Shown piece by piece: positions 164-11,961 of a DNA stretch of 39,528 bases. Location of the stretch: the NCBI GenBank assembly GCA_028820845.1, contig JAPPII010000027.1, positions 1 to 39,528 on the forward strand, read 5' to 3'. The position numbers and the translations under genes are program-made. The first letter of the stretch is position 1. Every line of letters begins with the position of its first letter. The notes under the pieces are model-generated. The model was not told where the DNA came from. It did no database searches and saw only the letters and a list, made by a program, of their open reading frames with translations. The DNA is from Candidatus Poribacteria bacterium (GTDB taxonomy: Bacteria > Poribacteria > WGA-4E > WGA-3G).

Positions 164-189
164 CCGGCGCGGTTTCTTAACCGCGCCGG
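164..189 (-). terminator. Rho-independent terminator of the sigma-clamp gene
   Basis: A perfect 11-bp stem (CCGGCGCGGTT / AACCGCGCCGG) with a 4-nt loop starts 45 nt after the stop codon of the sigma-clamp gene. On the minus strand it is followed by a T-rich stretch (TTTATTTG). The remainder of 1-234 holds no convincing gene. Confidence 0.75.
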
Positions 190-234: not shown

Positions 235-1965
235 CTACTCCAGAAGCATCGGCATGATGAGCGCAATATCCCTGTCATTGCCCATCGGCTTAATAAGAAC
301 GGGATCCAACTCCCGTGAAAACTCTATTGCCACGAACTCGGTTTCGATGTGTGCCAATGCATCTGCCAATAAACGTGCATCAAAGCCAATTAGTATACAT
401 CCAGTCCCAGATTCCACACGCACTGTCTCGTAGGGTTCTTCTGGTTCCGATGTCTCTGTGGAGACCCGAATCTGTTCCGTATCGATTTCCAAACGGATCT
501 TATGGTCTTTCGGATTGGCTAACTGTCCGATGTGTTGTGTCACACGCAGGAGTTGCTCTCTTGAAACGCCTACTTTGTTTTTGTTCTGTGGGATGATCTT
601 GTGGTAGTTTGGATACTCTCTGTCCACAAGTTCGGTTGTCAAGGTGGCATCTCCATCGGTAAATCGGATTTGGTTTCCAGAAACAGAGACATCCACTTCA
701 ATAGATTCGGAGAAAATTTTCGGAAGCTCCTGAACCGTTTTGAGCGGAACTATAAACCCGTTGGCTTTCCCTTGTAGATCGATCGGATCAAAGCATGCCA
801 GGGCGAGACGCTTGCCGTCCGTCGCAACGATTTCTGTTCTATCTTCAAGGAAGTTGAAGTAGAGACCTTTTAGGAAACTCCGCTCGTCCTCTGTAGATGC
901 AGCATACGCCGTTTTGTGAATGACATCGCGCAATGTCTGTCCACTAAGCGAGAACGTTTCACTTTCAACTGAAAATGGTTGCGGAAAAGTTTCACCAGAT
1001 ATATCGGTGATTTTGTAAATACTATCGCCACACCTAATTTCAACGGTATCGTTGGCTGTTTTTACCAAATTTACCGGCATATCCGTTGGTAAGGTTTTAA
1101 GTGTTTCTATCAATTTCTGAGCAGGAACCGTAATCGTTCCCTCCGCTTTGACTGTCGCTTCAATCTTCGTTCTGACGCTAACTTCTAAATCAATCGCTCC
1201 GGCTTCCGTGCGGATGAGAACATTTGAGTGGATGAATTCATCACTCTGTCCAATCGTGACACCTTGCAGTCCTTGCAGGGCTTGCAAAAGGTCATCTCTT
1301 TCTAAAGTTAATTCCATTTCAAAACCCTCCTTAATTCTGTTACTTGCTGGCTTAGGTGCTTCCTGTTCAGGCACCCTTATAGTTCTTTCGCTCTTGACTT
1401 CTTCAACACCAAATTCTGTGCGTAGCAGTGTCCGAACCTCTCTAAGCCTGGTTTTGACAGTGCCGACTGCTAAGTCGAGTTCTTCTGCAATCTCTTTAAC
1501 AGTTGACATTTCTAAATAGTACAACACGGCGACAGAACGGACCTTTTCTGGGAGGTGATACACGGCTTCCCTGACAGCCCAACGGAGTTCCGTTTCTCGA
1601 AAACGGGCGAGCGCGTCCTGATCCATCGTCTCAGCGAGTTGATCAGTGCTCTGAAGAATTTCACTTCTGGTGTGAGACTTCTGGGTGTAGTATCGTCTAC
1701 AAGCCGTATATGCTATTTTTTGGAGCCACGCACCGAAACTACTAACTTTGCGTAAGCCATCTATGTTTTCCCAGACCGCTATCCAAATGTCTTGAAAAAT
1801 TTCTTCGGCATCGCGGGTCTGGCGTGAGTTTAAGACAACCAACTGCCAGATTCGGAAACTATGACGGTTTGCGAGTTGCCCGAAGGCGATCTCGTTACCG
1901 TCTTGTACGAGTTCAATGAGTTCTTCATCTGTCAGGTCGGTGTACATGGACGAATTGTATCGCAT
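235..1965 (-). CDS. ECF sigma factor fused in frame to DNA polymerase III beta sliding clamp
   Basis: This is a 576-residue chimera. Residues about 10-90 look like sigma-70 region 2 (EEIFQDIWIAVWE, then FGAWLQKIAYTACRRY). Residues about 125-185 look like region 4, with a helix-turn-helix (STVKEIAEELDLAVGTVKTR). From residue 217 the protein is a complete beta clamp of 360 residues: MELTLERDDLLQALQ start, ATDGKRLAL, and the C-terminal LIKPMGNDRDIALIMPML, where clamps usually end in MPMR-type sequence. There is no stop codon between the parts. The clamp's usual start, ATG at 1317, is preceded by a near-perfect Shine-Dalgarno AAGGAGGG (1325-1332) with 7-nt spacing, so free clamp may also be made. 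The long start is ATG at 1965. Whether this is the housekeeping dnaN or a paralogue cannot be told here. Confidence 0.9.
   Translation of the reverse strand: MRYNSSMYTDLTDEELIELVQDGNEIAFGQLANRHSFRIWQLVVLNSRQTRDAEEIFQDIWIAVWENIDGLRKVSSFGAWLQKIAYTACRRYYTQKSHTRSEILQSTDQLAETMDQDALARFRETELRWAVREAVYHLPEKVRSVAVLYYLEMSTVKEIAEELDLAVGTVKTRLREVRTLLRTEFGVEEVKSERTIRVPEQEAPKPASNRIKEGFEMELTLERDDLLQALQGLQGVTIGQSDEFIHSNVLIRTEAGAIDLEVSVRTKIEATVKAEGTITVPAQKLIETLKTLPTDMPVNLVKTANDTVEIRCGDSIYKITDISGETFPQPFSVESETFSLSGQTLRDVIHKTAYAASTEDERSFLKGLYFNFLEDRTEIVATDGKRLALACFDPIDLQGKANGFIVPLKTVQELPKIFSESIEVDVSVSGNQIRFTDGDATLTTELVDREYPNYHKIIPQNKNKVGVSREQLLRVTQHIGQLANPKDHKIRLEIDTEQIRVSTETSEPEEPYETVRVESGTGCILIGFDARLLADALAHIETEFVAIEFSRELDPVLIKPMGNDRDIALIMPMLLE
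1325..1332 (-). promoter_or_regulatory. Internal Shine-Dalgarno site for a free beta clamp
   Basis: AAGGAGGG on the minus strand lies 7 nt before an in-frame ATG (1315-1317) encoding MELTLERDD, the normal start of a beta clamp. It lies inside the sigma-clamp reading frame (residues Lys-Glu-Gly), so it would allow internal initiation from the same mRNA. Confidence 0.75.
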
Positions 1966-2037
1966 AAACAGATTCCCAATTAGATTTTGGTTGTATAGAG
2001 GGAGACTTTTGGGGAAACGGTTTAAAAAAATGAAAAA

Positions 2038-2060
2038 AGGCGCGCTCGGAAAGCGCGCCT
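2038..2060 (-). terminator. Rho-independent terminator of the ABC permease gene
   Basis: A perfect 9-bp stem (AGGCGCGCT / AGCGCGCCT) with a 5-nt loop begins 32 nt after the permease stop codon. On the minus strand it is followed by TTTTTCATTTTTTT. It separates the permease from the downstream sigma-clamp gene. Confidence 0.85.
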
Positions 2061-2092: not shown

Positions 2093-3394
2093 TTAATCTT
2101 TGCGTAATGCCACAACCGGTGGGACAGTAGCGGCTTTTATTGCAGGGTAGATACCGAACGAAATACCAATCGCTGCCGAGAAGGATACCGAAATCAGGAC
2201 CCACTGCATAGAGATAACCGAGGGCCATTCGGGAACAATTTTGGCGATTTTGACGGCGAGCATCGCCATCCCCTCGCCAGCAAAGACACCGAGTCCAACG
2301 CCTATCGCGCCGCCTACCGCGCACATAACTATCGCTTCTATGAGGAATTGTGCAAGAATATCGAACGGTTTTGCACCGAGTGCTTTTCGTAAACCGATCT
2401 CACGGATGCGCTCATTGACAGAAACGAGCATCATGTTCATAATGCCGATACCGCCAACGAGGAGCGAAAATCCGGCGATGCTCCCCAAGGCGATTTTAAT
2501 CATTTTGCTAATCTTCTCTAATTGCGCCATGCCAGCGCGCATCTCAGAGACTCTGACGAATTCGTCTTCGTTGTTGTGTCTTTTTCTTATGACCGTTTTC
2601 ACCTCTTCGATTGCTTTCGGGATAACGTCGACACTGTTCGCGAAGACCATAATACCGTGAATCTTATCACCACCAGTGAGACGCTCTTGTACAGTTGAGA
2701 CAGGCATGAAGGCGAGGTTATCGTAACTCCACCCAAACTGGAAGCTTGTCCCTCTCGGCATGAAGGTCCCAACGACTGTGAAGCGTTCGGTCAGCCGCTC
2801 CCGCCGTCTTCTACCCCATTGATCGTAATATCGAACGTCTCTTGCGATTTTAATTTCTTGTCCTAAGGGTGATTTATTACCAAATAACTCGGTTGCGAGT
2901 TCGTCTCCGAGTACACAGATTTTTGTTGCGTTTTGGACATCTTCGTCTGTAATGAAGCGTCCCTCTTTAATGTCCCAATCCATTGCGGTTGCGTAGGTAG
3001 GACCGACTCCATTATAGCCGGCACGGGCTTCCGTGCCCCCCGGACCCTGAAATAGGACACCGCGCCAATCCGCGATTCTGGGTGTGACCGCATTCACGGA
3101 TGGGCATTCAGCCTCAATTGCCAACGCATCTTCGTATTCCATGTATTCGTTGCTGCGAATGCGGACCCACCTGTTATTTTCTCGTTTATAGGATGTTTGA
3201 TACAATGTAATTCGGGTTGCCCCGCCCATTTTTTGGGCATCTTGTATCACAATTTCTTTAGCTCCATCTCCGATAGCTATCATTGCAAGGACCGCTGCAA
3301 TACCGATGATAATTCCAAGCATCGTCAGTAACGAACGCATTTTGTTCGCACGCATTGCAGCGATCCCAATAGACAGCCCTTCGACTAAGCGCAT
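2093..3394 (-). CDS. MacB/FtsX-family ABC transporter permease
   Basis: A 433-residue inner-membrane permease of the MacB type. The N-terminal segment RANKMRSLLTMLGIIIGIAAVLAMIAIG (about residues 15-42) is the first membrane helix. It is followed by a large periplasmic MacB-core-like domain (about 45-300). Three C-terminal helices follow (about 310-425), with the FtsX-type sequence NMMLVSVNERIREIGLRKALGA between the first two. The start ATG at 3394 has a strong GGAGG at the expected distance. Such permeases work with an ATPase and usually a MacA-like adaptor to export peptides, lipids or lipoproteins, but neither partner lies downstream in this window. They may be upstream elsewhere, or this may be an orphan. 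A terminator follows, so the gene ends its own transcript. Confidence 0.9.
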   Translation of the reverse strand: MRLVEGLSIGIAAMRANKMRSLLTMLGIIIGIAAVLAMIAIGDGAKEIVIQDAQKMGGATRITLYQTSYKRENNRWVRIRSNEYMEYEDALAIEAECPSVNAVTPRIADWRGVLFQGPGGTEARAGYNGVGPTYATAMDWDIKEGRFITDEDVQNATKICVLGDELATELFGNKSPLGQEIKIARDVRYYDQWGRRRRERLTERFTVVGTFMPRGTSFQFGWSYDNLAFMPVSTVQERLTGGDKIHGIMVFANSVDVIPKAIEEVKTVIRKRHNNEDEFVRVSEMRAGMAQLEKISKMIKIALGSIAGFSLLVGGIGIMNMMLVSVNERIREIGLRKALGAKPFDILAQFLIEAIVMCAVGGAIGVGLGVFAGEGMAMLAVKIAKIVPEWPSVISMQWVLISVSFSAAIGISFGIYPAIKAATVPPVVALRKD

Positions 3395-8952: not shown

Positions 8953-11900
8953 CTAAGGTGCGGGGACCTGCGTTAAGAGATCGGCGTTAAGAGCTTCTTC
9001 TTCCTCAAGCGGGATGTGGAACATGCCGCGGTGTTGTGTAGCGATGTACAGTCTATCGTTGTTGACAACGAGTGAGATAACTCTATCTGGCACACTCGCA
9101 GCCATCTGTTTCCACCTGCCACGGTCATCCAAGCGATAGACCCCTGTATCACCAGCACCATAAATGCTGGTATGATTGATAGCCAATCTGTCTATGACAA
9201 TAGGCTGACCGGCTCTGTCAGTTAGGACGCGCCAGTTTTCTCCGTCCTGTGAGGATAAAACACCGTTGTCTGTGGCAACGTAAACCGTTGAACCGGCAAA
9301 GACGATCTCGCTGAAATGGGTAAACAGAAGTGGGAGGCTTGACGTGATGTCTTTCCAAGTGTCTCCGGCATCGAGTGATTGAAACAGTTGTCCGGCTCGT
9401 TTTCCGACGTAGACGGTTTCTCCTGAAGCTGCCAATTTGAATCCGTGTTGCAAATCTTCATCTGGTTGTTTGCCGAGGTCTATGAGTCCGGTGTTTGTCC
9501 ATTCTGGGTCTCCAAGTTTCCATTTGAAAAGCCTGCGTTGATGCTCTACGTAGAAAGTTTCATTAGTGCTCGTAAATCCACCGGCTATTACGAAAGAGGC
9601 AACAGTTTGCAACGCTTTCATCAATTTCTCATTTTTTTCTATATCATCAGGTAAGTTAAGCCCTTCTGCTTTTGCGACAGTTGTCCACAATTCGGTAGAC
9701 AACATTTTTTCATAAAAAGAAGGTAGCCTTTGAGTAGGGATGAGTATGTTACCATCTGTCGATAAGCGGAAAATCCGCAGATTGTTTCCATCGGGGACAA
9801 TCCCATACAGCCCTTCATCTACTAATGTTAACCTGGCTTTAAAAGAAAAGTCAACATGAGAGTTTTTCTGCCGTATTGATTCAAGTTCATCCTCGTTAGC
9901 ATCAATCTTAATCCTTTTCCATGATTCGCCATCATCTATTGATTGGACAGCATGGCTCCCGGTATATGCATAGAGTTTGTTGTTTAATGCTGTCAAACTC
10001 CGTATTCTCGTTCCTACTATTCCGTCCATAAAGGGATACCACGAGTCGCCACCGTCAATTGTTTGATGCACACCCAATGCCCCGGCTATGTACAAAGTAT
10101 TTTCGTCGGCCGCTGCAGTTGTAAAGACATTCTGTTTGATTGGGTTTCCGTCGAATCCGAGTTTTGCCCATGTTTGTCCGTTATCGTTTGAACGGAAACT
10201 CAATCCACCATCTAAAACTAAGAGAGTTTTACCAACAGTTAAGATTTTGACGCTACGTGGGCCCACCATAATAGACGGTTTATTTTTAGGTGTTATCTCG
10301 GTCCAGGACAACCCTAAGTCACCTGAGTGGAAAATCTTCCATGGACGTGCAGCGTCCCCTGTTATTCTTTGCGTGGCGTACTTTCCCTCTGTTTTGGACA
10401 ATCCCAATCCAAAAGGATCGGGGCCTGTTGCAACATAAAGATTGTTTTCCATAACTGCCAAGGCGTGGACTGCGTTAGCTGAGTCCAATGACAATTGTTC
10501 CCAAATATCCGAATTAAGACGATAGACACCGTCATTTGTGCCAGCAAATACTGTGTTTTCAACTGTAGCGACTGCGTAAATGCGCTTGCCTGCCAGCCCA
10601 TTATCTAAGTGTGTCCACTGTGCGCCTGCATCCGCGGAGCGGAAAACACCTCTATTTTCAAGTGCGAGATATATTCCATGTGAACTGTTCTCGCGTGTTT
10701 CATCTATTATTACGAGTCCGATAGCATCCCCTTCTGGACGGAGCCCCAGAGCATTCCATGTCTCACCTTTATTGGTTGAATTAAACACTTCATCATCGGA
10801 AACAATATAAAGCGTATTATCGTGCTCTGCCATCGGCATCGGGAAATTCCCAGTAGGCACACTCGTATTGACGAGCGTCCACGCAGTTGCATCCGCTGTC
10901 CGATTGTAAATACCGCTTGCTGTAGCAGTATAAAGGGTTCCGTCGGATGTGACGAAGATTTCAGAAATGTGACTCCCTTGTGGTCCGCTTACCTGATTCC
11001 ATTGTGTGATAGACGGTCTGAACGGACTCTTCTGCGTATTCGGTGCTAAGACATTCTGGGAATCTTGCAGACCGACACCACTATTTTCGCTGGAAATAGC
11101 GACCCGGCCAGCCTGATTTCGCACGGCTGGTTTTGAATCAATGTCAAGTGTAATCGGGGCATCAATAATCTCAACTGTCCGCTCGGATCGTGCCTCAAAA
11201 CTATACGGTTTCTGAAAACGGGCAAGATATTGATTGGTTGCACCCAACATCAAAACAATCAGAAGGGTAGCGGTACCGAAAGCAATCCAAGGTGTTAAGG
11301 GTTTTCCGACTGAAGGTGGTATCGGTTTCATGTCGGCGACCTGCCGCATGATGTTCTCAGTCAAATTGGGAGGTAATTGGAAACTGCCGAGAATTTCACG
11401 AATCAAAAGTTCCTCGTGTTTTTCTAAACGCTTTCGCGCCCGCTGAAGTCGACTTGTGATTGTGTTTGCAGATACGCCGAGAAACTTCCCTATCTCTTTC
11501 GTCGTCATTTCACTGAGGTAGTAGAGCGTCACGACGGTTCGCTCGCTTTCGGGTAGTTTGTTGAGTAGTGCCTTGACAAGTGCTTCGCTACGTTCAGAGG
11601 TCTCTACATTGCGTTGCTCTGATAGGTAATGTTCATAAGACAATTTGGCTATTTCTTGTCCAGGTGTGCCTTCCAGCGATTGCGTTTTAGACATGTTTTT
11701 TCGGAGCCAGTTAACGCAACATCGTCTTGTAATGACATAGAGCCACCCGGCGAATTGTCTGTGGTCCTTTAAGGTTGGCAGTTTTTTGTAAGCTTCAAGG
11801 AAGGCATCTTGAACAATTTCTTCGGCATAGTGAAAGTCATTCACCTTCCGCCATGCAAGGGCATGCATACTCTTTTGGTACTTTTCAACGAGCGGACTAA

Positions 11901-11961
11901 ATGCGTCGTCATCGCCTGATAAAACTTTGCGAATTAACTGAACATCGTTTTCTTTTTCCAT
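8953..11961 (-). CDS. ECF sigma factor - transmembrane - beta-propeller fusion
   Basis: 1002 residues. Residues about 10-90 are sigma region 2 (YAEEIVQDAFLEAYKKLP; FAGWLYVITRRCCVNWLR). Residues about 125-185 are region 4 (TTKEIGKFLGVSANTITSRLQRARKRL). One membrane helix follows (about 223-243, TPWIAFGTATLLIVLMLGA). The remaining 700 or so residues are BNR/sortilin-type propeller repeats with many Asp-box-like sequences (SADAGAQWTHLD, SNDNGQTWAKLG, TIDGGDSWYPF, SLDAGDTWKDI, SQDGENWRVL). This layout predicts a sigma domain tethered to the membrane with a sensor domain outside. The sigma part could act while anchored or after proteolytic release; neither is shown by sequence. AAAGGC precedes the ATG at 11961. 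Confidence 0.9.
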   Translation of the reverse strand: MEKENDVQLIRKVLSGDDDAFSPLVEKYQKSMHALAWRKVNDFHYAEEIVQDAFLEAYKKLPTLKDHRQFAGWLYVITRRCCVNWLRKNMSKTQSLEGTPGQEIAKLSYEHYLSEQRNVETSERSEALVKALLNKLPESERTVVTLYYLSEMTTKEIGKFLGVSANTITSRLQRARKRLEKHEELLIREILGSFQLPPNLTENIMRQVADMKPIPPSVGKPLTPWIAFGTATLLIVLMLGATNQYLARFQKPYSFEARSERTVEIIDAPITLDIDSKPAVRNQAGRVAISSENSGVGLQDSQNVLAPNTQKSPFRPSITQWNQVSGPQGSHISEIFVTSDGTLYTATASGIYNRTADATAWTLVNTSVPTGNFPMPMAEHDNTLYIVSDDEVFNSTNKGETWNALGLRPEGDAIGLVIIDETRENSSHGIYLALENRGVFRSADAGAQWTHLDNGLAGKRIYAVATVENTVFAGTNDGVYRLNSDIWEQLSLDSANAVHALAVMENNLYVATGPDPFGLGLSKTEGKYATQRITGDAARPWKIFHSGDLGLSWTEITPKNKPSIMVGPRSVKILTVGKTLLVLDGGLSFRSNDNGQTWAKLGFDGNPIKQNVFTTAAADENTLYIAGALGVHQTIDGGDSWYPFMDGIVGTRIRSLTALNNKLYAYTGSHAVQSIDDGESWKRIKIDANEDELESIRQKNSHVDFSFKARLTLVDEGLYGIVPDGNNLRIFRLSTDGNILIPTQRLPSFYEKMLSTELWTTVAKAEGLNLPDDIEKNEKLMKALQTVASFVIAGGFTSTNETFYVEHQRRLFKWKLGDPEWTNTGLIDLGKQPDEDLQHGFKLAASGETVYVGKRAGQLFQSLDAGDTWKDITSSLPLLFTHFSEIVFAGSTVYVATDNGVLSSQDGENWRVLTDRAGQPIVIDRLAINHTSIYGAGDTGVYRLDDRGRWKQMAASVPDRVISLVVNNDRLYIATQHRGMFHIPLEEEEALNADLLTQVPAP

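Follow-up and report, generated by a model that had tools for sequence, protein, structure and literature searches.

An ECF sigma factor of Candidatus Poribacteria fused to a DnaN-derived domain, and related fusions to essential proteins

The sigma-DnaN locus

The window analysed here is a stretch of 39,528 nucleotides from Candidatus Poribacteria (contig JAPPII010000027.1, assembly GCA_028820845.1), and close to its first letter lies a minus strand gene (235..1965) whose single uninterrupted ORF, with an ATG start and no internal stop, encodes a protein of 576 amino acids. As the preliminary description had claimed, sigma regions 2 and 4 (residues 1-190) are joined in frame to a clamp that begins at Met217, and Pfam and TIGR matches bear out both parts. 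Within the sigma module (1396..1965, minus strand) Pfam places Sigma70_r2 at residues 47-97 and Sigma70_r4_2 at residues 130-178, and the Pfam and NCBIfam scores lie over the family cut-offs (PF04542, 33.8 bits; PF08281, 38.2 bits; TIGR02937, 71.8 vs 42.9). Having Sigma70 regions 2 and 4 only, the module is an ECF (group IV) sigma. A linker (residues 191-216; 1318..1395, minus strand) leads into the DnaN-derived domain (residues 217-576; 238..1317, minus strand), where Pfam finds three DnaN domains (residues 217-328, 340-453 and 456-573) and the TIGR00663 dnaN profile scores 206.6 bits against a cut-off of 137.65. The three domains are all there but around five residues near E. coli position 45 are missing, and so the earlier wording of a "full-length beta clamp" is approximately right. 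The nearest solved relatives in the PDB are bacterial beta clamps and, for the sigma, ECF factors of the SigW and RpoE type. An AlphaFold prediction from eight sequences reached a pLDDT of 59.7, too poor for a fold search or for contacts between the sigma and clamp domains.

The fusion is its own transcription unit, bounded by the terminator of the upstream gene, a predicted promoter and a 3' hairpin, all on the minus strand. The predicted self-promoter, TTTTAAACC-N18-CTCTATA (1994..2027), lies 62 nt before the start codon and is a form of a bipartite element common to the family; the intrinsic terminator of the upstream gene (2038..2060) stands directly before it. Past the stop codon by 46 nt, a hairpin followed by a T-rich stretch (164..189; RNA fold −26.3 kcal/mol, z −5.1) is a probable terminator. 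The neighbouring gene (2093..3394, minus strand) encodes a MacB/FtsX-type efflux permease of 433 amino acids.

A second sigma fusion occurs in the window (8953-11961, minus strand), its 1002 amino acids comprising an ECF sigma and a BNR/YCF48/sortilin-like beta-propeller. In the source genome (G000; 5.69 Mb, 96% complete) some 39 ECF sigma matches were counted, and many of them sit in ORFs of 400-1000 amino acids with propeller, Kelch or M61-peptidase-like tails; ten of the ECF genes were scanned for domains. A search for another dnaN, as had been suggested, found two further stand-alone copies in this genome (contigs C119 and C101; loci L112 and L113), which makes it improbable that the fused copy is the housekeeping clamp. 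Having at least two stand-alone dnaN genes is usual in the genus, where a tandem second dnaN pair is frequent (pairs in L079, L080, L081 and L082).

Distribution and conservation

Poribacteria are sponge-dwelling bacteria, and within the genus of the source genome a full-length sigma-DnaN fusion occurs in 31 of 36 genomes, in two forms. Type A, that of the window, is found in six, with orthologues 65-77% identical; type B, in the other 25, has an ECF sigma only 25-30% identical to that of type A. None of the 36 genomes has full-length copies of both. A truncated type A copy is found in one further genome, and extra truncated type B copies in four. Homologues had been proposed as a check on the joined frame, and the same frame is present in all 31 species-level genomes, five of which are assembled in one to three contigs, as well as in a same-species MAG obtained independently (SB0670_bin_34, locus L183) with an identical clamp part and the same 576 amino acid ORF. 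An assembly error, or the very recent stop codon loss joining adjacent genes that was earlier offered as one explanation, has in its favour that the gene sits 235 nt from a contig end, but has next to no chance of being correct and was rejected, because the fusion recurs in the same-species MAG and is conserved genus-wide, single-contig genomes included.

Outside the genus, no sigma-DnaN fusion was found among the matches listed for 24 genomes drawn from the other families in the class, and all 78 loci with the sigma module in a GTDB scan are in MAGs labelled Poribacteria. Phage and plasmid collections held no place covering 80% of the fusion, and a literature search for a sigma fused to DnaN or FtsZ found no report.

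The internal ribosome site

A Shine-Dalgarno sequence 7 nt before Met217, spotted in the preliminary description, proves strong and conserved. It reads AAGGAGGG at 1332-1325 (minus strand) ahead of the ATG at 1317-1315, and the overlapping 8-mer TAAGGAGG (1326..1333, minus strand; 8 nt before Met217) is present together with the ATG, at the same spacing, in six of six type A orthologues. The linkers have otherwise diverged (dN/dS 0.15-1.2), with 29% of their nucleotides invariant among type A genes and no invariant 8-mer other than TAAGGAGG; across the whole gene fewer than 1% of 8-nt windows are invariant. Since the site is unchanged in all six within linkers that otherwise diverge, it is more than a chance resemblance. 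In type B a GGAG(G)- or GAGG-type site with an ATG occupies the corresponding place in 26 of 26 fusions examined. The linker looks like the leader found before stand-alone dnaN genes, ribosome site included, which suggests that an old dnaN and its own ribosome site were taken over as one. A free clamp-like product of around 40 kDa is likely to be made from the internal start, because Met and Shine-Dalgarno are conserved in every full-length fusion examined, and the second product proposed at the outset is to this extent plausible.

State of the clamp half

Scoring was by residues conserved in the stand-alone alpha clamps, with interface and pocket lists drawn from knowledge of the E. coli protein. 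At the dimer interface the window protein keeps 11 of 20 conserved residues, the type A consensus 13 and the type B consensus 12, against 20 of 20 in the stand-alone beta paralogue, despite its divergence elsewhere. The fused clamps thus lack the interface conservation of a functional beta clamp, with R96, I78 and R269 changed in type A, and L82 to W, Y106 to R and a changed L273 in type B. Nor are the DNA-facing residues conserved as in a functional clamp, 7 of 12 being kept, with R24 replaced by Q in six of six type A proteins and Y153 lost. The peptide-binding pocket is conserved in type A (18 of 20). In type B it stands at 15 of 20, with R176Q in 25 of 26, and is no better kept than the rest of the clamp. 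Contrasts between site classes within one group fall short of significance. In beta-type stand-alone copies it is the pocket that has changed (R176 to W, for example), with the dimer interface intact.

Purifying selection is acting on both halves of the fusion, at dN/dS 0.11-0.18 in the sigma part and 0.20-0.28 in the fused clamp, the latter relaxed in comparison with the stand-alone alpha clamp (0.03-0.05). Taken together, eroded interface and DNA-facing residues beside a kept pocket and continuing purifying selection argue against a tether that encircles DNA and for a retained binding function.

One sigma module and its partners

The sigma module of the window (55-79% identity) is also found fused to FtsZ, to FtsZ and DnaE, to the GTPase half of FtsZ, to PurC and to WD40, and a sigma-FtsZ-half gene is present on another contig of the source genome itself (L110). 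Depending on the genome, the locus behind a ribose-type permease gene holds sigma-FtsZ-DnaE, sigma-FtsZ, sigma-PurC with sigma-FtsZ, or sigma-DnaN. Triple sigma-FtsZ-DnaE fusions of 1350-1440 amino acids (L098, L099, L100 and L101; GTDB loci L196, L197, L199, L247 and L256) keep the catalytic aspartates of the polymerase and lack the DnaE C-terminus, and a vestige of the DnaE start is left at the end of several shorter sigma-FtsZ genes. The unrelated type B sigma, besides its fusion to DnaN, has PurC attached in two genomes, and PurC thus stands behind two unrelated ECF sigmas (L266 and L268 in G027 and G021; L103/L181 in G023). The window fusion is one of a broader family of sigma factors, apparently undescribed, that carry copies of essential proteins.

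For PurC the sequences indicate that capture of the host's own essential gene is recent and recurrent, because the fused copy in G027 is 98.3% identical to PurC of the same genome and that in G023 falls among the PurC sequences of closely related genomes; independent origins seem the more likely for these fusions, and dN/dS of the attached PurC is 0.05. Capture of FtsZ and DnaE was apparently single and older. Two independent captures of DnaN, for types A and B, are suggested by the best tree and are not claimed here, a single origin with later exchange of the sigma not being rejected (AU test p = 0.45).

Predicted family promoter, regulon and neighbours

Nearly every gene with a type A sigma has TTTTAAACC-N18-CTCTTTA upstream, the spacer being exactly 18 and the distance to the start codon 58-75 nt in most. 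A specific bipartite promoter, usually before the own gene, is characteristic of ECF factors, and by sequence such an element, TTTTAAACC-N18-CTCTWTA, stands before this gene and its paralogues. The source genome has only two sites at 0-1 mismatch, one before sigma-DnaN and one before sigma-FtsZ. Beyond these two self sites, counts at up to three mismatches in that genome were not above a reversed-pattern control, and a large regulon was rejected since the looser matches were no commoner than in that control. The loose scan also brought up an interspersed repeat, with about ten near-identical copies of TATTATACCAATTCTAATTGATAATTCCTCTTAA spread over many contigs of the source genome (C33:57740, C35:85034, C37:46638 and C47:17560 among them). 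Nine other genomes hold two to five promoter sites each, mostly before sigma fusions and a few before MacB permeases. In three genomes (L173, L175 and L177; G027, G018 and G005) one-mismatch copies precede, by some 330-460 nt, MacB permease genes that have long leaders; such permease genes are possible extra members of the regulon, which may thus be less than strictly "self". Type B genes have a different conserved upstream block.

From the distribution of these sites the sigma would appear to act on its own gene family alone, and positive self-regulation is the simplest inference from the family promoter, with the proviso that promoter likeness between paralogues may partly reflect descent from one ancestral gene.

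Annotated loci show no anti-sigma gene next to the fusions, their annotated neighbours being transporters and enzymes. MacB paralogues adjoin both fusion types in several genomes, and at three type B loci (L119, L121 and L122) a conserved cluster of ABC exporters, MacB and two ABC-2 permeases lies around and between the sigma-DnaN and sigma-FtsZ-half genes. Efflux-type neighbours of both fusion types hint at xenobiotics, short of proof.

Comparison with known systems

ECF factors with regulatory C-terminal extensions are the closest parallel: sigma regions 2 and 4 are followed by a conserved C-terminal domain, a self-promoter is predicted, and the extension has been kept with its sigma over evolutionary time (31 of 36 genus genomes) in loci where no adjacent anti-sigma gene is seen. 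WD40 extensions, known among ECF factors, are carried by some paralogues of the window sigma module. The difference is that here the extension is copied from a protein essential to replication or division, is swapped from one lineage to another and has been taken up anew from the host genome, and no such extension was found in a review of ECF factors (PMC8999054).

The late transcription system of phage T4 (sigma gp55, clamp gp45, coactivator gp33) likewise associates a sigma-family protein with a sliding clamp. Its parts are separate and joined by a clamp-binding motif, and its clamp encircles DNA, whereas here the link is covalent and the residues for ring and DNA are, by sequence, eroded. 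With stand-alone bacterial DnaN the fused clamp shares the fold, the TIGR00663 family and (type A) the peptide pocket, but it evolves faster, has lost dimer-interface and DNA-facing residues and has gained an N-terminal sigma. Producers of griselimycin carry an extra DnaN, as duplicated-target resistance or as a decoy. The fusions resemble such cases in being an extra copy of an antibiotic target, and differ in that the copy is attached to a self-controlled sigma.

A captured copy as a proposed regulatory tail

The explanation that seems best, and that in our judgement falls just on the probable side, is of a family of self-regulating ECF sigma factors whose tail, at the C-terminus, derives from an essential housekeeping protein (DnaN in the present case), captured as a copy and acting as sensor or bait. 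ECF factors with C-terminal extensions use these as on-board regulators, WD40 included (PMC8999054), and the DnaN copy is read as such a regulatory tail because of this behaviour and because some close paralogues here carry WD40. In the mechanism proposed a ligand would bind the tail, for type A probably in the peptide pocket that has been kept, and so free the sigma part, which would direct RNA polymerase to its own promoter. More sigma-DnaN would then be made, along with a free clamp-like protein translated from the internal start, so closing a positive feedback loop. The captured protein would serve for what it binds and not for replication. Candidate ligands that would fit the type A pocket are peptides from proteins that bind the clamp, an antibiotic, or a toxin or phage protein directed at the clamp. 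The main difficulty is the eroded type B pocket, which, being no better kept than the rest of its clamp, leaves the pocket-ligand model not covering both types.

A more specific form of the regulatory tail reading, speculative and somewhat unlikely, makes these proteins integrated-bait sigma factors. Fused DnaN, FtsZ, DnaE and PurC would be decoys for phage inhibitors, toxins or antibiotics, and binding by the attacker would free the sigma and multiply the bait, fused and free, so that the cell both senses the attack and soaks up the attacker.

Alternative explanations

It is unlikely that the loop works as a self-amplifying brake, flooding the cell with monomeric clamp (or, in sister genes, with the FtsZ GTPase domain) that competes with the real proteins and brings replication and division to a stop, in the manner of dormancy or abortive infection. 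In its favour, a clamp that is monomeric but has a working cleft seems to be dominant negative in E. coli (PMC3022782), the type A clamp has lost interface residues and kept its pocket, some sister fusions retain only the GTPase half of FtsZ, and a strong internal ribosome site would yield just such a free product. Against this, the attached DnaE and PurC still have catalytic residues or are nearly identical to the enzyme of the host, and in type B pocket residues too are lost.

Quite unlikely is a passenger origin, by which a self-transcribing sigma gene occasionally lands before housekeeping genes and reads through, leaving attached parts with little function of their own. Recent captures such as sigma-PurC, the existence of truncated derivatives, linkers that look like the leader of the captured gene and a five-fold relaxation of selection on the fused clamp are what this would predict. 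Against it, dN/dS is well below 1 in the attached clamp and lower still in the attached PurC, the frame, Met and ribosome site are kept in all full-length fusions examined, and the same partners (DnaN and PurC) occur with two unrelated sigmas.

The clamp-tethered sigma put forward in the preliminary description, a covalent analogue of T4 gp45-gp55 in which the fused clamp, loaded at the fork, carries sigma and RNA polymerase and so couples transcription to replication, is very unlikely. An intact three-domain clamp fold by profile and the kept type A pocket would suit it, and T4 sets a precedent for a clamp tethering RNAP to DNA (PMC7892883). But dimer and DNA-face residues are lost in the fused clamps though stand-alone paralogues keep them, the sigma is fused also to FtsZ, DnaE, PurC and WD40, of which FtsZ, PurC and WD40 are not DNA tethers, and the promoter, with its −35-like and −10-like elements, is near-exclusive to the gene itself.

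Implications

If the regulatory tail reading holds, there would be a modular route by which any protein, core replication and division machinery included, is made to serve as the input domain of a transcription switch under its own control, and bacteria would reload the input domains of such switches from their own genome. One could then test whether sigma-borne copies let cells follow the state of the replisome or the Z-ring, or attacks on either, and a regulon of two promoters makes the system unusually simple to reconstitute. Were the bait form of the reading true, integrated-bait sigma factors would be to bacteria what the integrated decoys of immune receptors are to plants.
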